From: Planctomycetota bacterium
GTDB taxonomy: Bacteria; Planctomycetota; UBA1135; GCA-002686595
DNA: 64,000 nucleotides
Assembly (NCBI GenBank): GCA_012960475.1
Contig: DUBE01000043.1
Location: 124,001-188,000 of the forward strand
Direction of reading: 5' to 3'
Below the pieces are notes generated by a model. It saw only the letters and a program-made list of their open reading frames with translations, did not search any database and was not told the DNA's origin. Shown here piece after piece: positions 5,732 through 16,250 of this stretch (position 1 is the first letter of the stretch; each line of letters begins with the position of its first letter). A program made the translations under genes and the position numbers.

Positions 5732-8700
5732 CTAGCGCCTGCGCACGGCTCCTTGCTCCTGAACCACCAATATCCCATCTTGAGACCACCCAGCGGCCTC
5801 CCTGGCCCGCTGCTCGTCCTCGACAATTGCCTGCCGAAGGCGCTCCTGGGCCTGTCTACGGGCCGCTGAGAGACGGTTGCGGTCACCTGTGCCCATGCGC
5901 CCTGGCAGAGAATCCAACTGACGACAGACATGCTCGATCTCGCGCAGGTCGTCCGTAGCCGCTTGCACGGCATTGCTGAGCTGGGCTTCTTCGAGGCCCA
6001 AAGCCACGGCTCGCTTGATCAATGAAACCAACTCTTGGGTGTCTTCGTCGGCTGCCAATTCACGGTCAAGCATCAGCTCTTGCGCTGCTCGCAAGAGCTC
6101 CGCCACAGAATCACTACGGGCATGCACAGAGCGACGTAAGAACTCAGCGAACTGAGCTGTGACCACAGCACGGCGATAGCCCGCAGTCGTTGAACCTGGA
6201 TGAGCCAGAGCGTCCCGCGCCATGATCGGCAAACTGCGCTCGGTGGCCTGGCGCAAACTGTTATCCTGACCTCCAACCTTGGGCTCCTTCCACCGCAAAC
6301 GCGCAGTCGCCAGGGGCGTACCGTCATAAACGAGGCCTCGGTCCAGTTCGATTTCAAAGAGTGCCGTAACCTGGTGGCCAGAGCCCACTTCTCCCGCATC
6401 CACCGCGTCATCCCGGAAGGAGGCATCAGCGATCGAGCGATTCTCATACCCGAGCTGCCTCCAACGCACGACCTGACGGCCATTGAATTCCACTTGGATT
6501 TTCACATCGTCGGCGACAGGAACAAAGGCACCGGAAAAACGATCACCCAGAGCACGCTGGATCGCACGGTCATCGTCTACAAAATCGCAGAGCCCATCTC
6601 CTCCATCTGCTAGACGCTCAAGGAAAGTGTCGTTGTGTCCCTCAATACCTACGCCCAAGGTGTTGAGGTGGACCCCTTGATTGAGATGCCCGCGCACGGA
6701 TTCCAAGATCTTGTTCTGATCGGTTTCACCCGTGTTTGCCAGACCATCGGAAAGGAGGACAACACGACTGATCACATCCGGGGCTGCCCCACTAGCGGCA
6801 ATCTCGTAACCCAACTGCAAGCCCAGGGCGGCATTCGTTCCACCGCCGGGAGTGAATGTCTCTGTCGCCGCCAAAATGGCATCCCGGGCGGCAACGCTGG
6901 TGGGGGGCAGGATCTGCTTGGCTTCAGTGTTGAAAGTCACTATTGCCAAGGTGTCTCTGGCATCGAGCTTCTCCAACATGCGGGCCACAGCGCGTTTGAC
7001 GATGCCCATACGATCGTGGTGTTTCATGGAGCCAGAAACATCAACCACCATGACCAACGCCAGCGGGTCACGCTCCCAGGATTGGATCTCTTTGGCCCGT
7101 ACGCCAACCCTCAATAGCCAACGATCCCTACCATCACTACTGATGCTGGGGGCCATTTCCACCGACAACGCCAAAGCGTCATTGGTAGGAGCAATCAGAT
7201 CAGGACGGAAATAGTTGACGAATTCTTCAGTACGGATACCAGCGCGACCCGGCAACTCATCCTTGAGCAGCTTGTTGCGTGCCGCACCATAACTGGCGGT
7301 GTCCACATCAGCTGCAAAAGTCGCTTGGGAGTCCGCATAGGTCAGTTCCCAAGGGTTGTCCCCCCACCAATGTTGATACAGATCGGGCAAATGATCGTTT
7401 GGCCCTACGCTGCAGCGCCGCCTCGCGTCTTGGAAACGCAGGTCCACAGTATCCTGAAAGGGATCAAGGTGAATTGGAACGCGAACCGGCTCGACAGGCT
7501 CTTCAAAATCCTGCACCTCGGCTTCGTCTATTCGCACCCCATCACGAAGAAAGAAATCGTGAGCACCTAGTTGTATTCCCTTTTCCTGCATGGTCGCCTG
7601 TTCAGGGCGCTCGGAGCTAGAGCCCAGACCCTTCCCCGCAACATCACTGCCATCGTTAGGCATCCTCTTCCCAAAAGTCTGCTGGCGCTTCAGCTCATCC
7701 ACTCTTCCCCTGCCTTGAGTGCTCGGAGCTCCACCAGAAGTGCCGAGCGTATAGCCGAGTGCTCCAAGGCGGGGAGCCTCTCCCGCAACCGAGCTGGTGG
7801 ACGTATTGCCAGCAACATACCAGGCCTCTTTTGAAGCGGGAACCTTATCCGACGGGCCCCGCGATTTTGCTCCTGTACCACCGCCAATTCCTATCACCCC
7901 GGACTCCGCGCTAGCTCTAAGATTGATGGCATTATTCGGAGTAGTGGGGTCGTAGTAGAAAGTGCGACCAACTGAACTAGAGCTGGGCTGACTGCCGAGG
8001 TTGCTGGTTTTCTTGGCTGCAAGAGGGGTTCCAGGTGCAAGTGCACCGGGAGCAACAGGCCCCCTATAAGACCCACCGGCGCCTCCGCCCCCTCCGCCCG
8101 CGAGGACCCCGTTACGAGATCCAAATCGGCCCAATGAAGAACCCTTACGGTCTTCGCCGGCCTTGCCCTTCAGCACAATTCCGCCCGAGGGAGCGTTCTC
8201 AATAACAACAAGACCAAGGCTGACTTCCGCAGTCACTTCCTCAACCTCTTCCTCAAGCAACAAGTCCACACCGGTGTCTGTCTCCTGATGAGCATGCGCC
8301 AGTTGGAGATAGCGCTCTTGATCCGCAAGACCCTGGTACTGTCCAAATACAAAAGCATCGACTCCGCCACTTGCTCGACGTGGATTTGCCCGCTGAAAAG
8401 CGAGTTGCCCCAGCAGGTTTGCACGAGCAATACTGGCGATTCGCTCATCGTGGGCTGCTTCGTCGGTGATCAGGACCTGATTATGATCTGCAAACTGCAG
8501 CGCAGTCCATACACCGCCGGAGAGCACTACCACTGCGGCCGCAGCTCTCATCAATGAGCTCCAACCATTGGGCGAGGTCAGCAATTCTGTGCGTGCTGCG
8601 GAAATCGAACTCGCCGACTCCAGCAAATCATCCACACGCTGTGGGGCAAGGGTGGCTCCATCCCCCAACTCCGCTTGAACTATGGCAATCGTCGCTCGCA

Positions 8701-8830
8701 ACCGCTGTTCTTCAGCAACCAGTAACGGGTCACTGGCCAGCGCGATCTTGATCTCCGATCTGGTTGCCTCATCCGCTTCGTTCATCAGCACCGCGGTCAG
8801 TTTTTCCAAGAGGGGGTGGTGTGTACTCAT
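5732..8830 (-). CDS. Membrane-anchored VWA protein with N-terminal anti-sigma-like region (YfbK type)
   Basis: A 1032-residue protein. Residues 1-90 are a small helical cytosolic region of the kind seen in anti-sigma factors (HPLLEKLTAVLMNEAD, then LASDPLL); residues 91-112 form one membrane segment. A long, low-complexity linker with a poly-Gly stretch near residue 245 follows. From about residue 515 comes the YfbK-type module (DTASYGAARNKLL, RTEEFVNYF) and then a von Willebrand factor A domain with the metal-binding MIDAS motif in VDVSGSM, the later Thr in GGGTNA and Asp in LLSDG. A charged, helical tail with Arg/Glu repeats ends the protein. The start overlaps the stop of the upstream ECF sigma gene by ATGA, so the pair is probably translated together; control of that sigma factor is inferred from this and from the N-terminal region. 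Confidence 0.8.
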   Translation of the reverse strand: MSTHHPLLEKLTAVLMNEADEATRSEIKIALASDPLLVAEEQRLRATIAIVQAELGDGATLAPQRVDDLLESASSISAARTELLTSPNGWSSLMRAAAAVVVLSGGVWTALQFADHNQVLITDEAAHDERIASIARANLLGQLAFQRANPRRASGGVDAFVFGQYQGLADQERYLQLAHAHQETDTGVDLLLEEEVEEVTAEVSLGLVVIENAPSGGIVLKGKAGEDRKGSSLGRFGSRNGVLAGGGGGGAGGSYRGPVAPGALAPGTPLAAKKTSNLGSQPSSSSVGRTFYYDPTTPNNAINLRASAESGVIGIGGGTGAKSRGPSDKVPASKEAWYVAGNTSTSSVAGEAPRLGALGYTLGTSGGAPSTQGRGRVDELKRQQTFGKRMPNDGSDVAGKGLGSSSERPEQATMQEKGIQLGAHDFFLRDGVRIDEAEVQDFEEPVEPVRVPIHLDPFQDTVDLRFQDARRRCSVGPNDHLPDLYQHWWGDNPWELTYADSQATFAADVDTASYGAARNKLLKDELPGRAGIRTEEFVNYFRPDLIAPTNDALALSVEMAPSISSDGRDRWLLRVGVRAKEIQSWERDPLALVMVVDVSGSMKHHDRMGIVKRAVARMLEKLDARDTLAIVTFNTEAKQILPPTSVAARDAILAATETFTPGGGTNAALGLQLGYEIAASGAAPDVISRVVLLSDGLANTGETDQNKILESVRGHLNQGVHLNTLGVGIEGHNDTFLERLADGGDGLCDFVDDDRAIQRALGDRFSGAFVPVADDVKIQVEFNGRQVVRWRQLGYENRSIADASFRDDAVDAGEVGSGHQVTALFEIELDRGLVYDGTPLATARLRWKEPKVGGQDNSLRQATERSLPIMARDALAHPGSTTAGYRRAVVTAQFAEFLRRSVHARSDSVAELLRAAQELMLDRELAADEDTQELVSLIKRAVALGLEEAQLSNAVQAATDDLREIEHVCRQLDSLPGRMGTGDRNRLSAARRQAQERLRQAIVEDEQRAREAAGWSQDGILVVQEQGAVRRR

Positions 8831-9435
8831 CGAGCATCTCCCAAGCGCATTTGGCTTGATTGTGTATGCCCCATCATGGGGGCAAGGATCTGGGACAAGG
8901 CAACCAAGCCAGTGCTCAGCAGCCAGCCAATGGTGCCGGTCTTGCGACCGGTGATCTCCGCGATTTCTTGGTAGCTATGACCGTCCAATAAACGCAAGAC
9001 CAGCACCTCCCGTTGCTCAGGTGGCAACTGGTCCATGCCGCGTCGAACCGCCGCTCTAGTGTCTGCGCCGTCCACGGAAGATTGTCCTCCGGAAACGGCC
9101 TCGGCAGGCGCGACCGCCTGTTCCCTTTGTTTGCGTCGGCTGGTGGATCTCATTTCATCGGTGCAGAGATTGCGCGCTACCCGATGCAACCAGGCGGCGA
9201 GAGCGCCGTGCCCTACAGAGGGGTTCTGGTTTGCGTCCGGGTGGGGCGCAGGGGGTTTTTGTGCCAGCCGTAGAAAGGTCTCCTGTACAACATCCTCGCA
9301 AGAGCCATTAGGACCCAAAAGGACCCGCACATGACGCAGCAGAGGTTCCTCGAAGCGCTGGATCAAGGCGGCGAATGCATCGGTTTCACCGTCCCGCCAG
9401 CGCTCCAGGAGAGATGCGGTGGAAATTGCCTCCAT
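8827..9435 (-). CDS. ECF-type RNA polymerase sigma factor
   Basis: A 202-residue sigma factor. Region 2 includes LLERWRDGETDAFAALIQRF and the -10-binding part EDVVQETFLRLAQ...WLHRVARNLCTDEMRS; region 4 includes LPPEQREVLVLRLLDGHSYQEIAEITGRKTGTI, a helix-turn-helix for the -35 element. The start at 9435 (MEAISTASLLERW) is chosen because the open frame further upstream runs antisense through the agmatinase gene and shows no homology. It overlaps the VWA/anti-sigma gene by 4 nt. Several codons after region 4 (STGLVALSQILAPMMGHTQ) are unusual for the family. Likely responds to an envelope or surface signal through its partner. Confidence 0.9.
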   Translation of the reverse strand: MEAISTASLLERWRDGETDAFAALIQRFEEPLLRHVRVLLGPNGSCEDVVQETFLRLAQKPPAPHPDANQNPSVGHGALAAWLHRVARNLCTDEMRSTSRRKQREQAVAPAEAVSGGQSSVDGADTRAAVRRGMDQLPPEQREVLVLRLLDGHSYQEIAEITGRKTGTIGWLLSTGLVALSQILAPMMGHTQSSQMRLGDAR

Positions 9436-9552
9436 GGGCTGTACAGCATGAAACGACGAGGCCCCCGAAACCTTGGAGAAAATCTCTGAAGTGCATATCC
9501 CGGGTAAAGGATTTCGGACCTCGTAGATGCCTCCAATGCCCCTGGAGCCCGC

Positions 9553-9558
9553 TATTCT
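9553..9558 (+). promoter_or_regulatory. Possible -10 element for the agmatinase-family gene
   Basis: TATTCT ends 6 nt before the ATG at 9565, the spacing expected for a leaderless transcript. No convincing -35 element is visible, so this is a weak call supported mainly by the same arrangement at other genes in the window. Confidence 0.3.
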
Positions 9559-9564
9559 GCACGC

Positions 9565-10608
9565 ATGGACAGTTTTGATCCGGACGCGGCAGCCCAGCCG
9601 GGCAGCGGGATTTTTGGCCTGCCCCATGGCTTGGCCGAAGCCCAGACGCATGTCCTTGGCCTGCCCTTTGACGCCACAACCTCCTACCGCCGCGGCACCA
9701 TGCATGGGCCCGAAGCAATCGTAGCGGCCTCGCGGCAGGTGGATCTGTACGACAGGCTCTTCGGCGAAGCGCACGCAGGCGGGATTCACTACAGCGCCGA
9801 TGATGGCCGCGTGACGCAGTGGAACCGAGAGGCCCGCGCCCTTGCGGACCCGATCATCTCGGCGGGCGGCGCGGAAGACGGAAACAGCGATCACCAGCAG
9901 GCTATTTTGCGCATCGAAGCCCTGGGCGAGGCCGTGCGTAAACATGTTCAAGAGTTCACCGCCAATTGCCTCAACGCAAAGCGACTGCCGGTCCTGCTGG
10001 GAGGCGACCACAGCGTTCCCCTGGGGGGCATCGAGGCCGCAGCCTCGCACTATGGCGAACTAGGTGTACTGCAGTTCGATGCCCACGCAGACCTGCGCGA
10101 AGCCTATGAGGGCTTTCGCTGGTCCCATGCCTCGATCTTCCACAATGTCCTTCAAGAGATCCCCCAGCTTCACTCCCTGGTCCAAGTTGGCGTACGGGAC
10201 CTTGGCGAACGCGAGGCATTGCGCTGCGCGGAAGACCCGCGCGTCAAGACCCTCTTCGATGATCAATGGGCAGCCTTGCCGCCGGCCAGCCCAGCAAGGG
10301 ACCAAGCGATGAACGACTGCCTCGGGTCCCTGCCAAACCTGGTCTGGATCAGCTTTGACATCGACGCTCTAACCCCCAATCTCTGCCCCGGAACAGGGAC
10401 GCCCGTTCCAGGTGGATTGGACTGGCATTCCGCCATGGCCTGGCTCGAAAAACTAGTGCAAAGCGGCCGCAGAATTGTGGGCCTGGACCTTTGCGAGGTA
10501 GCTCCGGGCCCCAACCCAGACCCTAATGGCAGCAGCTGGGACGCAATTGTGGGCGCGCGACTCCTATACCGTTTAATCGGCGCGGCTCGAGAATCACAAA
10601 GAGCCTGA
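9565..10608 (+). CDS. Agmatinase/arginase-family ureohydrolase
   Basis: A 347-residue binuclear manganese hydrolase. The metal ligands are in the expected order: GGDHS (about residue 150), FDAHADLR (about residue 172) and SFDIDALTP (about residue 270), followed by GLDLCEVAPGPNPD. The DAHADLREAYEG segment followed by a downstream His resembles agmatinases (SpeB), which split agmatine to putrescine and urea, rather than true arginases. Residues 70-130 contain an insertion relative to a typical 300-residue SpeB. It stands alone on its strand, convergent with the exchanger gene 10 nt away. Arginase, formimidoylglutamase and guanidine-hydrolase activities cannot be excluded from sequence. Confidence 0.8.
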   Translation: MDSFDPDAAAQPGSGIFGLPHGLAEAQTHVLGLPFDATTSYRRGTMHGPEAIVAASRQVDLYDRLFGEAHAGGIHYSADDGRVTQWNREARALADPIISAGGAEDGNSDHQQAILRIEALGEAVRKHVQEFTANCLNAKRLPVLLGGDHSVPLGGIEAAASHYGELGVLQFDAHADLREAYEGFRWSHASIFHNVLQEIPQLHSLVQVGVRDLGEREALRCAEDPRVKTLFDDQWAALPPASPARDQAMNDCLGSLPNLVWISFDIDALTPNLCPGTGTPVPGGLDWHSAMAWLEKLVQSGRRIVGLDLCEVAPGPNPDPNGSSWDAIVGARLLYRLIGAARESQRA

Positions 10609-10618
10609 CGCTCAGGAT

Positions 10619-11584
10619 TTAGGCGCCGGCGCCCAGGAACATTGAGACAGACCACGCGAAGTACGCGGCGAGCATCAGTGCAGCCTTGCAACGCAACCAG
10701 CGCCCCCGAGACAGGCGCAAGAACCCGATCAAACCAATCGTAAAGAGGGCGGTCATAGGCAGATCCGTAGCCATCGTGCGTTCCAGAGTACCCAAGCTGT
10801 CAGACTCCAAAGGACCAATACCGAAGGCAATGCCCAAGACCATCAGGGTGTTGAAGACATTGCTACCGACCACATTGCCTAGGCCCAAGCCCGCTTGACC
10901 CTTGAGAGCACTGACGATCCCCGCTGCCAGTTCAGGCAAGCTCGTTCCGACCGCCAGCACGGTGAAACCAATGACCGTAGCTGGCACCCCGAGGGCTTCC
11001 GCCAGACCGATCCCGCCGTCCATGGCTGCCAGTGCTCCAAGAGCAGTAGCGATGGAACCACCGACGATCATCATCCAAGGGTGACGGGAACCATGGCTTG
11101 CGACCTCTTCCAGGGCCGTCTCTCCCTCTTCCGCAGGATCGCGCAACACTAGAACCTGATAGAGCACAAAACCAACGAAGAGCACCAGGGCCTCGACCGC
11201 AACCAAGGCTCCGCCCCCTGATAGGAAAAACAACAAGACCAACGACCCCAAGAGCCAGGAGGTCTCGCGGATTGAAAGGACCTGATTGAACAATCGTGGC
11301 AGGATCAGGCCGGTAACGCCCAGCACCAATCCAATGTTGGCAATGTTCGACCCAAGGACTGTGCCCAGGGCCAGGCCATGTTCTCCACGATTTGTGGCTA
11401 ACGACGCTACGACCACCTCTGGTAGCGATGTCCCTAATGCGACTACGGTAAGCCCCGTAACCATAGGCGGGACTCCAAGGATTCGTGCAAGGGTAACCCC
11501 CCCATCTACGAGCCAGCCCGCGCCCTTGGTAAGCAGAACAAAGCCCGCAAGCATGAACAGACAATCAACCAGGAGAGGGGACAT
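10619..11584 (-). CDS. Calcium/sodium antiporter, CaCA family (YrbG-like)
   Basis: A 321-residue inner-membrane exchanger with about ten hydrophobic segments and the two inverted alpha repeats typical of the family. Repeat 1 is VTGLTVVALGTSLPEVVVAS with GTVLGSNIANIGLVLG; repeat 2 is VIGFTVLAVGTSLPELAAGI with GNVVGSNVFNTLMVLG. The GTSLPE and GSN motifs carry the acidic and polar residues that bind Ca and Na. The length matches single-unit bacterial members. No accessory domain is present. Confidence 0.9.
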   Translation of the reverse strand: MSPLLVDCLFMLAGFVLLTKGAGWLVDGGVTLARILGVPPMVTGLTVVALGTSLPEVVVASLATNRGEHGLALGTVLGSNIANIGLVLGVTGLILPRLFNQVLSIRETSWLLGSLVLLFFLSGGGALVAVEALVLFVGFVLYQVLVLRDPAEEGETALEEVASHGSRHPWMMIVGGSIATALGALAAMDGGIGLAEALGVPATVIGFTVLAVGTSLPELAAGIVSALKGQAGLGLGNVVGSNVFNTLMVLGIAFGIGPLESDSLGTLERTMATDLPMTALFTIGLIGFLRLSRGRWLRCKAALMLAAYFAWSVSMFLGAGA

Positions 11585-11679
11585 GAGTAGCGGGATCGGG
11601 CCAAATCAATGAAGATTGACGGTCAGATCCTAGGTCCAAGGGTAACCCTCCCTGGATCGATTTCCTCCCCTTCTCCCCG

Positions 11680-12834
11680 ATGCACACAAGAATGCGCTAT
11701 ACCCAGGTCCTTCCCCTCCTTCTTCTGAGCACTGCCCCGGCAATGGCCCAGAGCACCGCGACCGTTGCCTTTGAATCCTTCGATTATGCCACAGGAGGCC
11801 TTGGCGGCCACGGTGGCGGAGCAGGCTGGTTCAGCACCTGGTGGTCCGGCAACAACTCTGACGACGCCCTGGTCTCCAGCGGCTCACTTGACTCGATTGG
11901 CAACAAAGCCACCACCAACTGGGAGCATGCGGGCTCCTACCGCATCCCAGAATCCGGCCCCCATACGGACATCGCACCGGACGGCCGTTTTGGCTCGGGT
12001 GACGGCGTCATGTGGATCAGTTTCCAAGCCCAGCGCGCGGGTTCAGATGATTACGGTGGATTCTCCCTGAACGAGCAATTCGTTGGCGAGAAGCTCTTCA
12101 TCGGTTCCCCCTGGCAAACCTACGAATGGGGCATGGAAGATCCTGCCACCGGCACGCGAGTGCTGGTCGGGGGATCGAACATCGATACGGTGACCCGTGT
12201 GGTGGTACGCCTGACGTTTACCTCAACAGGCGAGACCGCCGACATGTGGCTCAACCCGGCCTCAACCCATCCAAGCGGTACCCCGGATGCCTCACTGGCC
12301 CTGGGCGACTTTGCGTGGAACGAAATCCGGCTGCAGTCCGGCGGCAATAATGGCGGCACCACAGCTTATGACTTTGATGAGATCTTGATTGAAAAGGAGA
12401 TCCCAGGTATCGGCACAAACTACTGCACATCAAACCTTAATTCCACCGGCGTAGCAGCAACCATGGGCGCCTCTGGCAGCAGCGTGGTCGTGGACAACAA
12501 CCTGACCCTGGAAGCGTCCAATCTGCCCCTCAACCAATTCGGATACTTCATCGGCTCCCGCACACAGGGTTTCGTGGCAAACCCCGGCGGGTCCCAGGGC
12601 AACATCTGCCTGGGCGCTCCCATCGCTCGATTCAACTCGATCGGGGGCTACAGCATCGGAAACTCTGGCTCTTCCGGCACGATCAACCTGCTGATCGACA
12701 TGAACAACATTCCCCTGACGCCAGTCACATCGGTTCTGGCGGGTGAAACCTGGAACTTCCAGGCCTGGTACCGTGACATGAACCCAGGCACCGTCAACAA
12801 CTTCACTGACGGACTTTCCATCACTTTCCAATAG
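11680..12834 (+). CDS. Secreted protein with LamG-like N-terminal region and shared FQ-ending C-terminal domain
   Basis: A 384-residue exported protein of unknown function. The signal peptide is RYTQVLPLLLLSTAPAMAQ; the ATG at 11692 is also possible and gives a more typical signal peptide. Residues about 25-245 resemble a concanavalin-like (LamG-type) beta sandwich: ESFDY start, SGGNNGGTTAYDFDEILIE end. Residues about 250-384 carry the domain repeated in three other proteins of the window, with NQFGYFI, NPGGSQGN(I/L)CLG, AGETWNFQAWYRD and NFTDG, ending in Phe-Gln at the stop. It is followed by a close paralogue at 12904, so a local duplication is clear. Confidence 0.75.
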   Translation: MHTRMRYTQVLPLLLLSTAPAMAQSTATVAFESFDYATGGLGGHGGGAGWFSTWWSGNNSDDALVSSGSLDSIGNKATTNWEHAGSYRIPESGPHTDIAPDGRFGSGDGVMWISFQAQRAGSDDYGGFSLNEQFVGEKLFIGSPWQTYEWGMEDPATGTRVLVGGSNIDTVTRVVVRLTFTSTGETADMWLNPASTHPSGTPDASLALGDFAWNEIRLQSGGNNGGTTAYDFDEILIEKEIPGIGTNYCTSNLNSTGVAATMGASGSSVVVDNNLTLEASNLPLNQFGYFIGSRTQGFVANPGGSQGNICLGAPIARFNSIGGYSIGNSGSSGTINLLIDMNNIPLTPVTSVLAGETWNFQAWYRDMNPGTVNNFTDGLSITFQ

Positions 12835-12903: not shown

Positions 12904-14058
12904 ATGCACAACAAAGCCATCCTCGTCATCTTTGCCGTGCTTGCGCCTGGTGCAGCCGCCCAAACCCAAGTGATCTCGTCAGAGTCATTCGACTATCCTG
13001 TCGGGGACACACTGGGTGGAAAAACAGGAGGTTTCGGCTGGCTGTTTCCCTGGTGGTCGGGAACCAACCTCGACGATGCCGTGATCCAAACCCCTGGCGT
13101 GGATGTAATCGGAGAACAGGTATCCACCAACAACGAAGACGCTGGCAGTTATCGTCTGCTGGACTACACGAATTTCTCACATCTGGCCGATGCCCAATTT
13201 CGCTTTGGCATAGACAATACGACCTTCTGGGTCAGTTTCTGGACCCAACAGGCCCCCACTTCCACTGATGAATACGGCGGGTTTTCCTTCAACGAACAGT
13301 TGGTAGCCGAGAAACTCTTCATCGGCAACCCGTGGCAGACTGGGCTCTTGGGAATCCAAGCGGTGGGAGCCCCGTCGGTCACGATCGCAGGAACCAACCC
13401 CATGGCCCTCAGTCGCATGGTGGTTCGAGTCGAACACCTCTCGGGCGATGAGAACATCAAGGTTTGGATCGATCCTGCGGTCACACACCCGGACCCTGCC
13501 CAGTTCCCACCAGATTTGGACGAGATGGTCCCCGATTTTGTTTGGAATGAAATCCGGTTGCAGTCCGGATCCAACCAGGGCGGAGTCACGGGCTGGTACT
13601 TTGATGATCTCTTGATTGAGGTAGAAGAAGGCAACTTTCCAAATATCGGAGTGAACTACTGCCTGGCAGAAAACAACTCAACTGGAATCCCGGCCGTGAT
13701 TTCTGCAAGTGGGGTAGATCAGGCCGGGGGACAACCTCTCTTCCTGGCCGCCGCAAATCTTCCCCTTGGAGAATTTGGCTACTTCCTGGCCAGTCAGGCT
13801 GCCGGCTTTATTCCCAATCCAGGTGGCTCCCAAGGGCACCTGTGCATCACTGGACTGATGGCACGCTTCAACGCTCAGATTCAGAATTCAGGCACGAGCG
13901 GACAAGTCCAGATCCCGGTGGACACCAATGCGATCCCCATGCCCAGCGTTACGGCGATCCTGCCCGGCCAAACCTGGAATTTTCAGTACTGGTATCGGGA
14001 TCTCAATCCAACGCCCACTTCAAACTTCACCGACGGGATCGCTATCCTCTTCCAATGA
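12904..14058 (+). CDS. Secreted paralogue with LamG-like region and shared FQ-ending C-terminal domain
   Basis: A 384-residue exported protein, same length and layout as its upstream neighbour. Signal peptide MHNKAILVIFAVLAPGAAAQ is followed by SESFDYPVGD, matching ESFDYATGG in the first copy. Other matching blocks include GGFSFNEQLVAEKLFIGNPWQT, FVWNEIRLQSGSNQGG and YFDDLLIEVE. The last 135 residues form the shared domain (GEFGYFL, NPGGSQGHLC, PGQTWNFQYWYRDLNP, NFTDG...FQ). The stop overlaps the ATG of the GH13 gene (ATGA), which suggests that the protein and the secreted carbohydrate-active enzyme are made together and may act on the same material at the surface. Confidence 0.75.
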   Translation: MHNKAILVIFAVLAPGAAAQTQVISSESFDYPVGDTLGGKTGGFGWLFPWWSGTNLDDAVIQTPGVDVIGEQVSTNNEDAGSYRLLDYTNFSHLADAQFRFGIDNTTFWVSFWTQQAPTSTDEYGGFSFNEQLVAEKLFIGNPWQTGLLGIQAVGAPSVTIAGTNPMALSRMVVRVEHLSGDENIKVWIDPAVTHPDPAQFPPDLDEMVPDFVWNEIRLQSGSNQGGVTGWYFDDLLIEVEEGNFPNIGVNYCLAENNSTGIPAVISASGVDQAGGQPLFLAAANLPLGEFGYFLASQAAGFIPNPGGSQGHLCITGLMARFNAQIQNSGTSGQVQIPVDTNAIPMPSVTAILPGQTWNFQYWYRDLNPTPTSNFTDGIAILFQ

Positions 14059-16250
14059 TCAAGGGAGCATTGCTTCTGGGCCTGGGGATTATTTGGGCCT
14101 TGCCGTACGCAGGGGCTGCTCCCCAGGGCGGCGCTACCTCAACCACGGGTCCCGCCTACTCAGCGATACCAGAGCGTTGGGTGATGTTGCAGTTCGTGGC
14201 CAATGTGCCCAGCCACACTGATCAACTCACGGTAACTGTGACTGATCTTGGCCATGGCGCCGTTGATCTGTATCTGCGCAAGGATCTGCCCCCCAGCACA
14301 AGCGACTGGGACTTCCGCTCTGCTTCCTCTGACACGGGCAATGAGAGCATCACGGTCAATTCCCTCACGGATCCGATACTAAGCACAGGAATCTGGAAAA
14401 TTGGCGTCTACGTTCCACTCTCAAATCCCTTTTCCCTCAACATCGATGCAAGCCCGCGGCCAAGCCAACGACCGGGAATGGGGGCTATTCCCTTTCACGA
14501 TGACCTCGGTACCGATGGCGTCACTTTCCGCGTTTGGGCTCCCAACGGCGACAGCGTAAATGTGGCGGGCGAATTCAACAGCTGGTCCAGCAACGCCACC
14601 CCCTTGCAGTCCGAAAGCAACGGAAAGTTCTCGGTGGACGTGCGCGATGCCCAAGCTGATCAGAAATATCGTTTCGTGATCAGCAACGGCACACAGGTCC
14701 TTTGGAAGAACGACCCTCACGCCTCCGAACTAACCAACTCTGTTGGCGACTCGAACATCATCGACCACGAAGCTCACACTTGGGATAATGATGGAGTTCC
14801 TCTGCCCGCCTGGAACGATCTTGTGATCTACGAAATGCATGTGGGCATGTTCGATCCAGACAACCCTCTTGGCGTAGGTAACTTCAGCGATGTAATAAGC
14901 CGCCTGCCCTATCTCGCAGACCTGGGCGTCAGCGCTTTGGAACTGATGCCGATTGCAGAGTTTCCCGGAGATCGTTCCTGGGGCTACAACTACAGCCACC
15001 CCTACGCGGTGGAAACTGCCTATGGGGGTGTAGACGGACTCAAGGCCCTGGTGGATCAAGCCCACGCACAAGGCATCGCGGTTCTGCTCGATGTGCTCTA
15101 CAACCATTGGGGCCCCACAGACCTCGACCTTTGGCGTTTCGACGGTTGGAGCCAAGGCGGCTGGGGCGGCATCTACTTCTACCAGGACGATCGCGCCATC
15201 ACGCCCTGGGGTGACACCAAACCCGATTACGGCCGCGCCGAAGTTCGCACCTACATCCGAGACAATGCTCTCTACTGGTTGCAGCAGTTGCATGTAGATG
15301 GCTTGCGCTGGGATTCCACTTCGACCATGCGCCTTGGGCCCAGCGGTGACCTCCCCGAGGGCTGGTCGTTGATGCAATGGTGCAACGACTCGGTGGACGG
15401 CAGCCAAAACTGGAAGATCCAGATCGCCGAGGACATGTATGACGCACCCAACCACTGGATAACCAAGACCACGGGGGCCGGAGGCGCCGGGTTTGATTCC
15501 CAATGGGACGCGCTCTTTGTGCACCCCATACGGGCGGCTGTAGTAGATCCCAATGACAACAACCGCAACATGTTTGATGTGCGCGACGCAATCGGACATT
15601 ACTACAACGGTCAAGCCTTCCAGCGCGTGATCTACACCGAAAGCCACGATGAGGTTGCCAACGGTCGATCGCGAGTACCAGAAGAAATCTGGCCCGGCAA
15701 TGCGGACAGCTACTACTCCAAGAAACGCTCGACCCTGGCGTCAGCCCTGGTTTTGACCTCACCTGGCATCCCCATGATATTCATGGGTCAAGAGTTTCTG
15801 GAAGATGGTTACTTCTCCGATGATGACCCCTTGGATTGGAACAAGCTGACACTCTTCCCTGGTATCCATGCCATGTATCGGGACATGATTGGGTTGCGCC
15901 GCAATCTAGGCGGCAACACCCGCGGCCTGCAAGGCAACAACACCAACATCCACCATGTGAATAACGGGGACAAGGTAATTGCCTTTCACCGGTGGGATCA
16001 GGGTGGAGCCGGCGATGATGTAATCGTCATTGCCAATTTCAAGAACCAGGCATGGACGAACTACCGCATCGGCCTACCCAGCCCAGGACTTTGGCAGGTG
16101 AGACTGAATTCGGACTGGGTAGGCTACGACTCCAGTTTCGGCAATCACGCGAGCCCAGACCTGCTTGCCGAACAGGTTCCCCATGACGGGATGCCCTACA
16201 GCGCCTCGTTCTCATTTGGGCCCTACACAGCCGTGATCTTGTCCCAGTAA
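14055..16250 (+). CDS. Secreted GH13 alpha-glucan-active enzyme with PPC-like and CBM48 domains (branching-enzyme-like)
   Basis: A 731-residue exported enzyme. The start at 14055 gives a signal peptide (IKGALLLGLGIIWALPYAGAA) and overlaps the upstream stop; longer frames upstream overlap a real gene. Residues about 28-140 resemble a PPC (bacterial pre-peptidase C-terminal) beta domain (GHGAVDLYLRKDLPPST..WDF). Residues about 150-240 are a CBM48-type module (VTFRVWAPNGDSVNVAGEFNSW). The GH13 barrel follows: LGVSALELMPI, LLDVLYNHWG, the nucleophile Asp in VDGLRWDST, the acid Glu in QIAEDM and the HD pair in ESHDEVANG. The MGQEF segment also fits branching enzymes and trehalohydrolases. Branching enzymes are normally cytoplasmic, so an exported one is unusual. 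Amylase or trehalohydrolase activity is possible. Confidence 0.8.
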   Translation: MIKGALLLGLGIIWALPYAGAAPQGGATSTTGPAYSAIPERWVMLQFVANVPSHTDQLTVTVTDLGHGAVDLYLRKDLPPSTSDWDFRSASSDTGNESITVNSLTDPILSTGIWKIGVYVPLSNPFSLNIDASPRPSQRPGMGAIPFHDDLGTDGVTFRVWAPNGDSVNVAGEFNSWSSNATPLQSESNGKFSVDVRDAQADQKYRFVISNGTQVLWKNDPHASELTNSVGDSNIIDHEAHTWDNDGVPLPAWNDLVIYEMHVGMFDPDNPLGVGNFSDVISRLPYLADLGVSALELMPIAEFPGDRSWGYNYSHPYAVETAYGGVDGLKALVDQAHAQGIAVLLDVLYNHWGPTDLDLWRFDGWSQGGWGGIYFYQDDRAITPWGDTKPDYGRAEVRTYIRDNALYWLQQLHVDGLRWDSTSTMRLGPSGDLPEGWSLMQWCNDSVDGSQNWKIQIAEDMYDAPNHWITKTTGAGGAGFDSQWDALFVHPIRAAVVDPNDNNRNMFDVRDAIGHYYNGQAFQRVIYTESHDEVANGRSRVPEEIWPGNADSYYSKKRSTLASALVLTSPGIPMIFMGQEFLEDGYFSDDDPLDWNKLTLFPGIHAMYRDMIGLRRNLGGNTRGLQGNNTNIHHVNNGDKVIAFHRWDQGGAGDDVIVIANFKNQAWTNYRIGLPSPGLWQVRLNSDWVGYDSSFGNHASPDLLAEQVPHDGMPYSASFSFGPYTAVILSQ

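Follow-up and report, generated by a model that had tools for sequence, protein, structure and literature searches.

This study focused on two overlapping genes in a 64,000-nucleotide stretch of a Planctomycetota genome (assembly GCA_012960475.1, contig DUBE01000043.1, positions 124,001 to 188,000; hereafter the window). They encode a glycoside hydrolase of family GH13, P0001, and a partner protein, P0002. P0001 belongs to an uncharacterised GH13 clade that falls on the side of the branching enzymes, and its partner is a protein of predicted concanavalin A-like fold whose gene stays near that of the enzyme in related genomes. We give about an even chance (roughly 0.5) to the reading that the two constitute a conserved extracellular alpha-glucan module, in which an active, exported, branching-enzyme-like GH13 would operate with a dedicated companion. 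This reading is favoured because the catalytic residues are conserved, clade and structure place the enzyme consistently, the two genes co-occur, import genes are neighbours of the enzyme in relatives, and both genes are under purifying selection.

The association of the two genes was examined in 121 related genomes, with the enzyme counted at an E value of 1e-100 or less. The partner domain was found in 28 and the enzyme in 27, with 26 genomes carrying both and 92 neither; two have the domain without the enzyme and one the enzyme without the domain (Fisher p = 5e-23, a value overstated by the relatedness of the genomes). A partner domain lies within 3.5 kb of 24 of the 29 enzyme genes; the exceptions are the second enzyme copies of G022 and G048 and the genes of G007, G168 and G024. 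Counted from the other side, 36 of the 59 places with a partner domain have an enzyme gene nearby, and in G022 (which has two copies), G040, G048, G051 and G060 every domain copy found adjoins one. Enzyme and partner are on the same strand in 23 of the 24 linked places and on opposite strands in G011. In the four genomes of the window's genus the partner gene lies upstream of the enzyme gene; in the remaining 19 that have both on one strand it lies downstream. Since gene order differs while the linkage stays, the link has outlived a rearrangement. Comparison of the window with its nearest relative, G003, gave ratios of non-synonymous to synonymous change (dN/dS) of 0.096 for the GH13 gene and 0.049 for the partner gene, both indicative of purifying selection; against G004, synonymous change is near saturation. 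Because of these ratios, and because the pair recurs in related genomes, it is more than a chance juxtaposition. An earlier note on this DNA had proposed that the two proteins are made together; its coordinates for the pair and the ATGA overlap of stop and start codons were confirmed, and the companion gene, of predicted lectin-like fold, is linked to the enzyme gene in relatives.

Profile searches gave P0001 no ready-made name. Its top NCBIfam scores were to GlgB and TreZ, both far under cut-off (272, 261 and 233 bits against 741, 577 and 464 for the GlgB equivalogs; 262 against 539 for TreZ), and five cytoplasmic members of its clade that were scanned scored similarly. The best single phmmer match in the PDB was a TreZ (168.4 bits), with a GlgB next (165.3 bits). 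In a maximum-likelihood tree of 73 rows, in which plain amylases were not included, P0001 fell inside its own clade of 37 rows (support 100/99), separate from six GlgB rows that include the E. coli enzyme (100/100) and from eight TreZ rows (100/99). A group supported at 98/93 unites the P0001 clade with GlgB, a second, unassigned group of 17 GH13 rows (100/100) and one GH13_8-like row, and leaves TreZ outside. The link between the P0001 clade and the 17-row group is weak (93/79). P0001 grouped with the branching-enzyme side and not with GlgX or pullulanase. The GH13_8-like row, L021, is a bacterial sequence labelled as such from its motifs; it sits on a long branch, as does the pullulanase row, and 19 of the 73 rows were flagged for unusual composition. 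Left out of the tree were L053 and L054 (same contigs as L035 and L036), L088 (a fragment), L020 (a partial GlgB), L029 (short and GlgX-like), the second GH13 of L045, the TreZ row L112 (a long branch with odd motifs), the TreZ locus L108, a TreZ place without a locus, the weak or partial matches L022, L023, L027, L030 and L031, and the enzyme genes of 13 further genomes. On the strength of the low scores and the separate clades, a plain GlgB or TreZ identity was rejected. Equating the cytoplasmic cyanobacterial members of the clade with the isoform BE3 was likewise considered and dropped, BE3 (PDB 7xsy) being a weak match of 99.9 bits. The 17-row group (L075-L092 without L088) is about 29-32% identical to P0001 and occurs in Nitrospira, Methylomonas, Actinoplanes, Verrucomicrobiota and others; no signal peptide was seen in it by eye.

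The predicted structure of P0001 (predicted local distance difference test, pLDDT, 83.5) points the same way as the tree. Branching enzymes took the first 11 rows of the VIA comparison, with Z scores from 42.4 to 37.1, and the best match, 8zqa, aligned over 558 residues at a root-mean-square deviation (rmsd) of 2.3 and 27% identity. TreZ reached Z 36.0 over 484 residues, and amylases about 36 over only about 412; kinship with plain extracellular amylases was judged from such structural matches and from profile scores. With a CBM48 module, a barrel and a C-terminal domain, the 98/93 node and these top structural matches, the enzyme has a branching-enzyme-like architecture, as the earlier note had supposed, and tree and structure favour the branching side over GlgX and pullulanase. 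The Pfam Alpha-amylase catalytic domain scored 79.6 bits against a cut-off of 22 and the alignment shows the catalytic D, E and D together with the accompanying H and R, which places the protein in GH13. The PPC-like domain described ahead of CBM48 was also recovered; PF04151 gave 26.4 bits with the N-terminal piece scanned alone and 21.8 bits in the whole protein, the cut-off being 25.9. With its catalytic residues intact, P0001 should be catalytically active.

The nearest known enzymes each resemble P0001 in part. It has in common with the GlgB enzymes of GH13_9 (E. coli GlgB; Rhodothermus 6joy and 8zqa) the CBM48, the barrel, the all-beta C domain and the SHDE of region IV, but differs from them in its signal-peptide-like start and PPC domain, in having DVLYNH where GlgB has DWVPxH and IAED where GlgB has AEES, and in its low GlgB score and separate clade. 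The tryptophan of region I in the GlgB rows (DW) is not present, P0001 having DV at residues 346-347. In PMC10254366, this tryptophan is described as contacting the donor chain in a Cyanothece branching enzyme and as conserved in E. coli; on that description, a donor-contacting position is occupied by valine in P0001. Regions III and IV (IAED, ESHDE) recall both GlgB and the GH13_8-like row, and the AED of region III and the E(S/C)HD of region IV are shared with eukaryote-type GH13_8 enzymes such as human GBE1 (structural match of Z about 35), although L021, which has the same features, groups with GlgB and not with the P0001 clade. Region I resembles the TreZ rows of GH13_10 (DVxYNHxGP), a subfamily that also supplied the best phmmer match in the PDB, but TreZ differs in clade and stands outside the branching side.

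From its ATG at 14055, P0001 begins MIKGALLLGLGIIWALPYAGAAPQ, an N-terminus judged by eye to be signal-peptide-like, hydrophobic and with an AxA-like site. The same ATG is conserved in G003 and G004, which supports this start; a GTG at 13842, which would lengthen the open reading frame, was rejected because it falls within the partner gene, in a different reading frame. For the signal peptide that the earlier note attributed to the enzyme, the sequence thus offers a signal-peptide-like start. By the same reading, 26 of the 37 rows of the clade were taken to be exported and 11 cytoplasmic. The window's own order, whose genomes were picked by kinship, supplies 16 of the 26; outside it, 10 rows read as exported and 11 as cytoplasmic (n = 21), in a contig scan that used one query sequence and short patterns and is no census. 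The labels are our reading of N-terminal hydrophobicity and the margin is narrow: among exported rows L056 has 1.91 and L071 1.97, cytoplasmic rows reach 1.78 (L061), and the first L064 copy has 1.51 or 2.41 depending on its start. Two exported Myxococcales rows, L071 and L073, have a lipobox-like cysteine, and one of 22 aligned members has a dockerin match (E 3e-4). Exported rows come from Planctomycetota, Fimbriimonadaceae and Myxococcales. Cytoplasmic rows come from cyanobacteria, Chlorobiaceae, metagenome-assembled genomes (MAGs) of alpha- and betaproteobacteria, Geobacter, Bryobacterales, a Binatia MAG and one Phycisphaerales MAG. All 11 fall together in a nested group (97/97); one change on the clade accounts for the labels. 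Export appears to be common in the P0001 clade and no oddity of the window's genome, a few labels being close. The earlier note had seen in P0001 an exported member of a usually cytoplasmic branching or trehalohydrolase kind, a picture not supported in that form, given its scores under the GlgB and TreZ cut-offs, its separate clade and the frequency of export there.

An exported branching-type enzyme has a precedent in the GlgB of Chlamydia, described in PMC11046441 as acting outside the cytoplasm; the route reported for it is type 3 secretion. The likeness is that of a branching-type enzyme outside the bacterial cytoplasm, a location predicted here from the N-terminus; P0001 differs in belonging to another clade and in having a signal-peptide-like start, whereas the chlamydial route, as given there, is not a signal-peptide one.

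The partner, P0002, begins MHNKAILVIFAVLAPGAAAQ, also signal-peptide-like by eye. In its predicted structure (pLDDT 87.7), residues 18-243 match concanavalin A-like folds in VIA, the best match being AbnA (Z 14.7, 177 aligned residues, rmsd 2.9), followed by TtX122B (Z 14.0) and CBM66 (Z 13.7), with calreticulin and GH16 enzymes nearby. No Pfam match was found for P0002 or for the upstream protein at 11680-12834, nor across the 36 members of the partner family, where the best E value was 0.12 in one member; Laminin_G was absent from all 36 up to E 1, and a PDB sequence search with the family gave no match up to E 10. The LamG-like part claimed for P0002 therefore stands as a concanavalin A-like fold but not as a Pfam hit. 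The description of P0002 as a paralogue holds for its relation to the protein of 11680-12834 (48% with P0002 as query, 47% with its first domain) but not for any relation to the GH13. Conserved acidic residues of the family include E136 and E216 of P0002. The C-terminal FQ-type tail occurs on many other proteins of the lineage: a search with P0002 gave at least 31 places, spread over numerous genomes of family f1, and a good number of these matched through the tail alone. In other lineages (L118-L145) the N-terminal domain is followed by tails of quite another kind. Together these look like a family of surface-sorting tails. In genome G037, the partner domain occurs with two Laminin_G_3 stretches in one protein (L153, 6355-8826, + strand), and no match to the enzyme was found in that genome. 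As far as fold and linkage indicate, P0002 probably binds glycan or holds the enzyme.

The surroundings of the enzyme differ among relatives. In four loci (L041, L042, L045 and L047) it has beside it another GH13 with a CBM48, an ABC ATPase and two permease genes, one of them a solute-binding/permease fusion. GH77 occurs in the first three, the L047 stretch ending before the position of GH77, and the partner domain is present in L041, L045 and L047, not L042 (gene families were assigned by Pfam for the members of these four loci, the rest by tblastn). In these four relatives the enzyme lies inside a maltodextrin-utilisation locus, of the kind known with a pullulanase or neopullulanase and MalEFGK-type importers. 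In a Fimbriimonadaceae genome the enzyme gene comes after a type I pullulanase (598.7 bits, cut-off 504.5), and in a Singulisphaera MAG (L064) two tandem enzyme genes, a duplicate at 7454-11847 on the + strand, are near GH77 and a neopullulanase-like gene. Adjoining the enzyme in L047 (11241-12101, +) and L044 (10741-11763, +) are genes that fuse an AMPK-type/CBM48 glycogen-binding domain to an ArsR-type helix-turn-helix; the two are 54% alike and possibly encode an alpha-glucan-sensing regulator. The pair in the window, by comparison, stands apart from any such locus, among neighbours that look unrelated by eye. Only one GH13 place was found in the window's genome, so that paralogues would not obscure a reading of P0001 function. 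A separate internal set in the genome comprises a GH57, a debranching enzyme, starch-synthase-type glycosyltransferases and a fusion of a glycogen-synthase-like with a phosphorylase-like part. The fusion, of 1400 aa, is on contig C14 (L152, 3138-7340, - strand) and adjoins the debranching enzyme, a glycosyltransferase and GH57. Coordinates of the features in the window are given in Table 1.

Table 1. Positions in the window of the gene pair, its upstream paralogue, and the domains and predicted catalytic residues of the two proteins.
Feature	Position	Strand	Basis or remarks
Upstream paralogue of P0002	11680..12834	+	384 aa; signal-peptide-like start, same two-domain build
Partner protein P0002 gene	12904..14058	+	384 aa; signal-peptide-like start followed by a concanavalin A-like domain and a C-terminal tail
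Signal-peptide-like segment of P0002, residues 1-19	12904..12960	+	Sequence, by eye
'ESFDY' domain of P0002, residues 20-243	12961..13632	+	Concanavalin A-like jelly roll by predicted structure
C-terminal FQ-type tail of P0002, residues 245-384	13636..14055	+	
ATGA stop/start overlap of P0002 and P0001 genes	14055..14058	+	
Branching-enzyme-like GH13 P0001 gene	14055..16250	+	731 aa; signal-peptide-like start
Signal-peptide-like segment of P0001, residues 1-21	14055..14117	+	Sequence, by eye
PPC domain, residues 50-119	14202..14411	+	Pfam PF04151
CBM48, residues 143-223	14481..14723	+	Pfam 48.5 bits, cut-off 22.4
GH13 barrel, residues about 250-617	14802..15905	+	Conserved regions DVLYNH, DGLRWD, IAED, ESHDE
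D420, predicted nucleophile	15312..15314	+	In 37/37 clade rows
E459, predicted acid/base	15429..15431	+	In 37/37 clade rows
D532, predicted transition-state stabiliser	15648..15650	+	In 36/37 clade rows; N in L049
Alpha-amylase_C all-beta domain, residues 633-729	15951..16241	+	Pfam 61.2 bits, cut-off 21.2

In the proposed module, both proteins would be exported and the GH13 would act on an alpha-1,4-glucan outside the cytoplasm. Judging from the alignment, it would use the retaining double displacement usual for such enzymes, with D420 as nucleophile, E459 as acid/base and D532 as stabiliser, and would either cut and re-form or hydrolyse external starch- or glycogen-like chains, making them usable. 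The companion, a concanavalin A-like domain with a lineage-specific tail, would bind glycan or hold the enzyme near the surface. This reading and its rivals overlap, and their probabilities are not meant to sum to one.

Two sets of observations weigh against an extracellular module of this kind. The first concerns uptake. Neither the importer fusion nor GH77 was matched in the window's genome, which is 90% complete. Among the 27 enzyme-bearing genomes, 14 gave a match to the fusion at an E value no higher than 1e-10; identity was at least 58% in 11, the query's own genome included, and in six the match is no more than about 16 kb from the enzyme. In the window's genus it was not matched in G003 or G004, and in G002 the match is on a different contig from the enzyme. 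Since the window's genome shows no match to such an importer or to GH77, and the pair lies apart from genes of this sort, the enzyme does not simply belong to an import locus there. That it feeds an uptake system is then not obvious in this genome, which leaves some room for a true branching enzyme working externally, one that would transfer alpha-1,4 chains onto alpha-1,6 positions of a glucan outside the cell, whether captured or part of the cell's own surface, for storage or modification and not for digestion. Structure and tree, both nearest to branching enzymes, agree with this, as does the exported chlamydial enzyme described in PMC11046441. We nevertheless consider it rather unlikely, as genes for degradation and uptake adjoin the enzyme in four relatives and as region I reads DVLYNH and not DWVPxH, with valine at the tryptophan position to which PMC10254366 assigns a donor contact. 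It could further be speculated, with still less confidence, that the clade is a new subfamily within GH13, made up of exported branching enzymes which, with a dedicated lectin-fold companion, would branch external alpha-glucan to hold, store or shape it.

The second set concerns the companion. A concanavalin A-like fold also covers hydrolases and shows no function; 23 of the 59 partner-domain places are away from any enzyme gene; in G007 and G168 enzyme and domain are on different contigs; and in G024 the enzyme is present without the domain. P0002 might accordingly be an enzyme itself, or a mere surface protein whose gene is joined to that of the GH13 for co-export alone. The span of the fold across GH16, other hydrolases and lectin-like domains, the conserved E136 and E216, the domain places remote from the enzyme and the G037 protein with its Laminin_G_3 repeats would all suit this, but co-occurrence of 26/28 and 26/27 is tighter than co-export would need, and in the five genomes named above all domain copies found are at an enzyme gene, so that we regard this explanation, too, as improbable. 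Least probable of the rivals is that P0001 is effectively a plain extracellular amylase, or a hydrolase of maltooligosaccharides, on a branching-enzyme-like scaffold, for which its TreZ-like region I, the pullulanase or neopullulanase-like genes near it in relatives and the amylase Z of 36 (though over about 412 residues only) can be cited, but against which CBM48, barrel and C domain align with branching enzymes over 558 residues and the tree, with no plain amylase rows, sets it with those enzymes and not with GlgX or pullulanase.

In bacteria, GH13 enzymes of the branching type are for the most part regarded as producers of internal glycogen. The CBM48-GH13 enzyme, the concanavalin A-like domain and the PPC domain are all of known kinds. 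In the part of the literature covered, no paper was found on the exported clade, on the linked companion family or under a name for the clade, and none under 'secreted branching enzyme' and like phrases. The clade is well supported and present in several phyla, with signal-peptide-like starts common in it, and in one order it is accompanied by a linked companion family that has no Pfam or PDB sequence match. That the genes travel together in so many relatives points to a possible way of handling starch-like sugars outside the cell. If active, the pair would widen the alpha-glucan handling known for the Planctomycetota, and it gives a defined pair of proteins to test.

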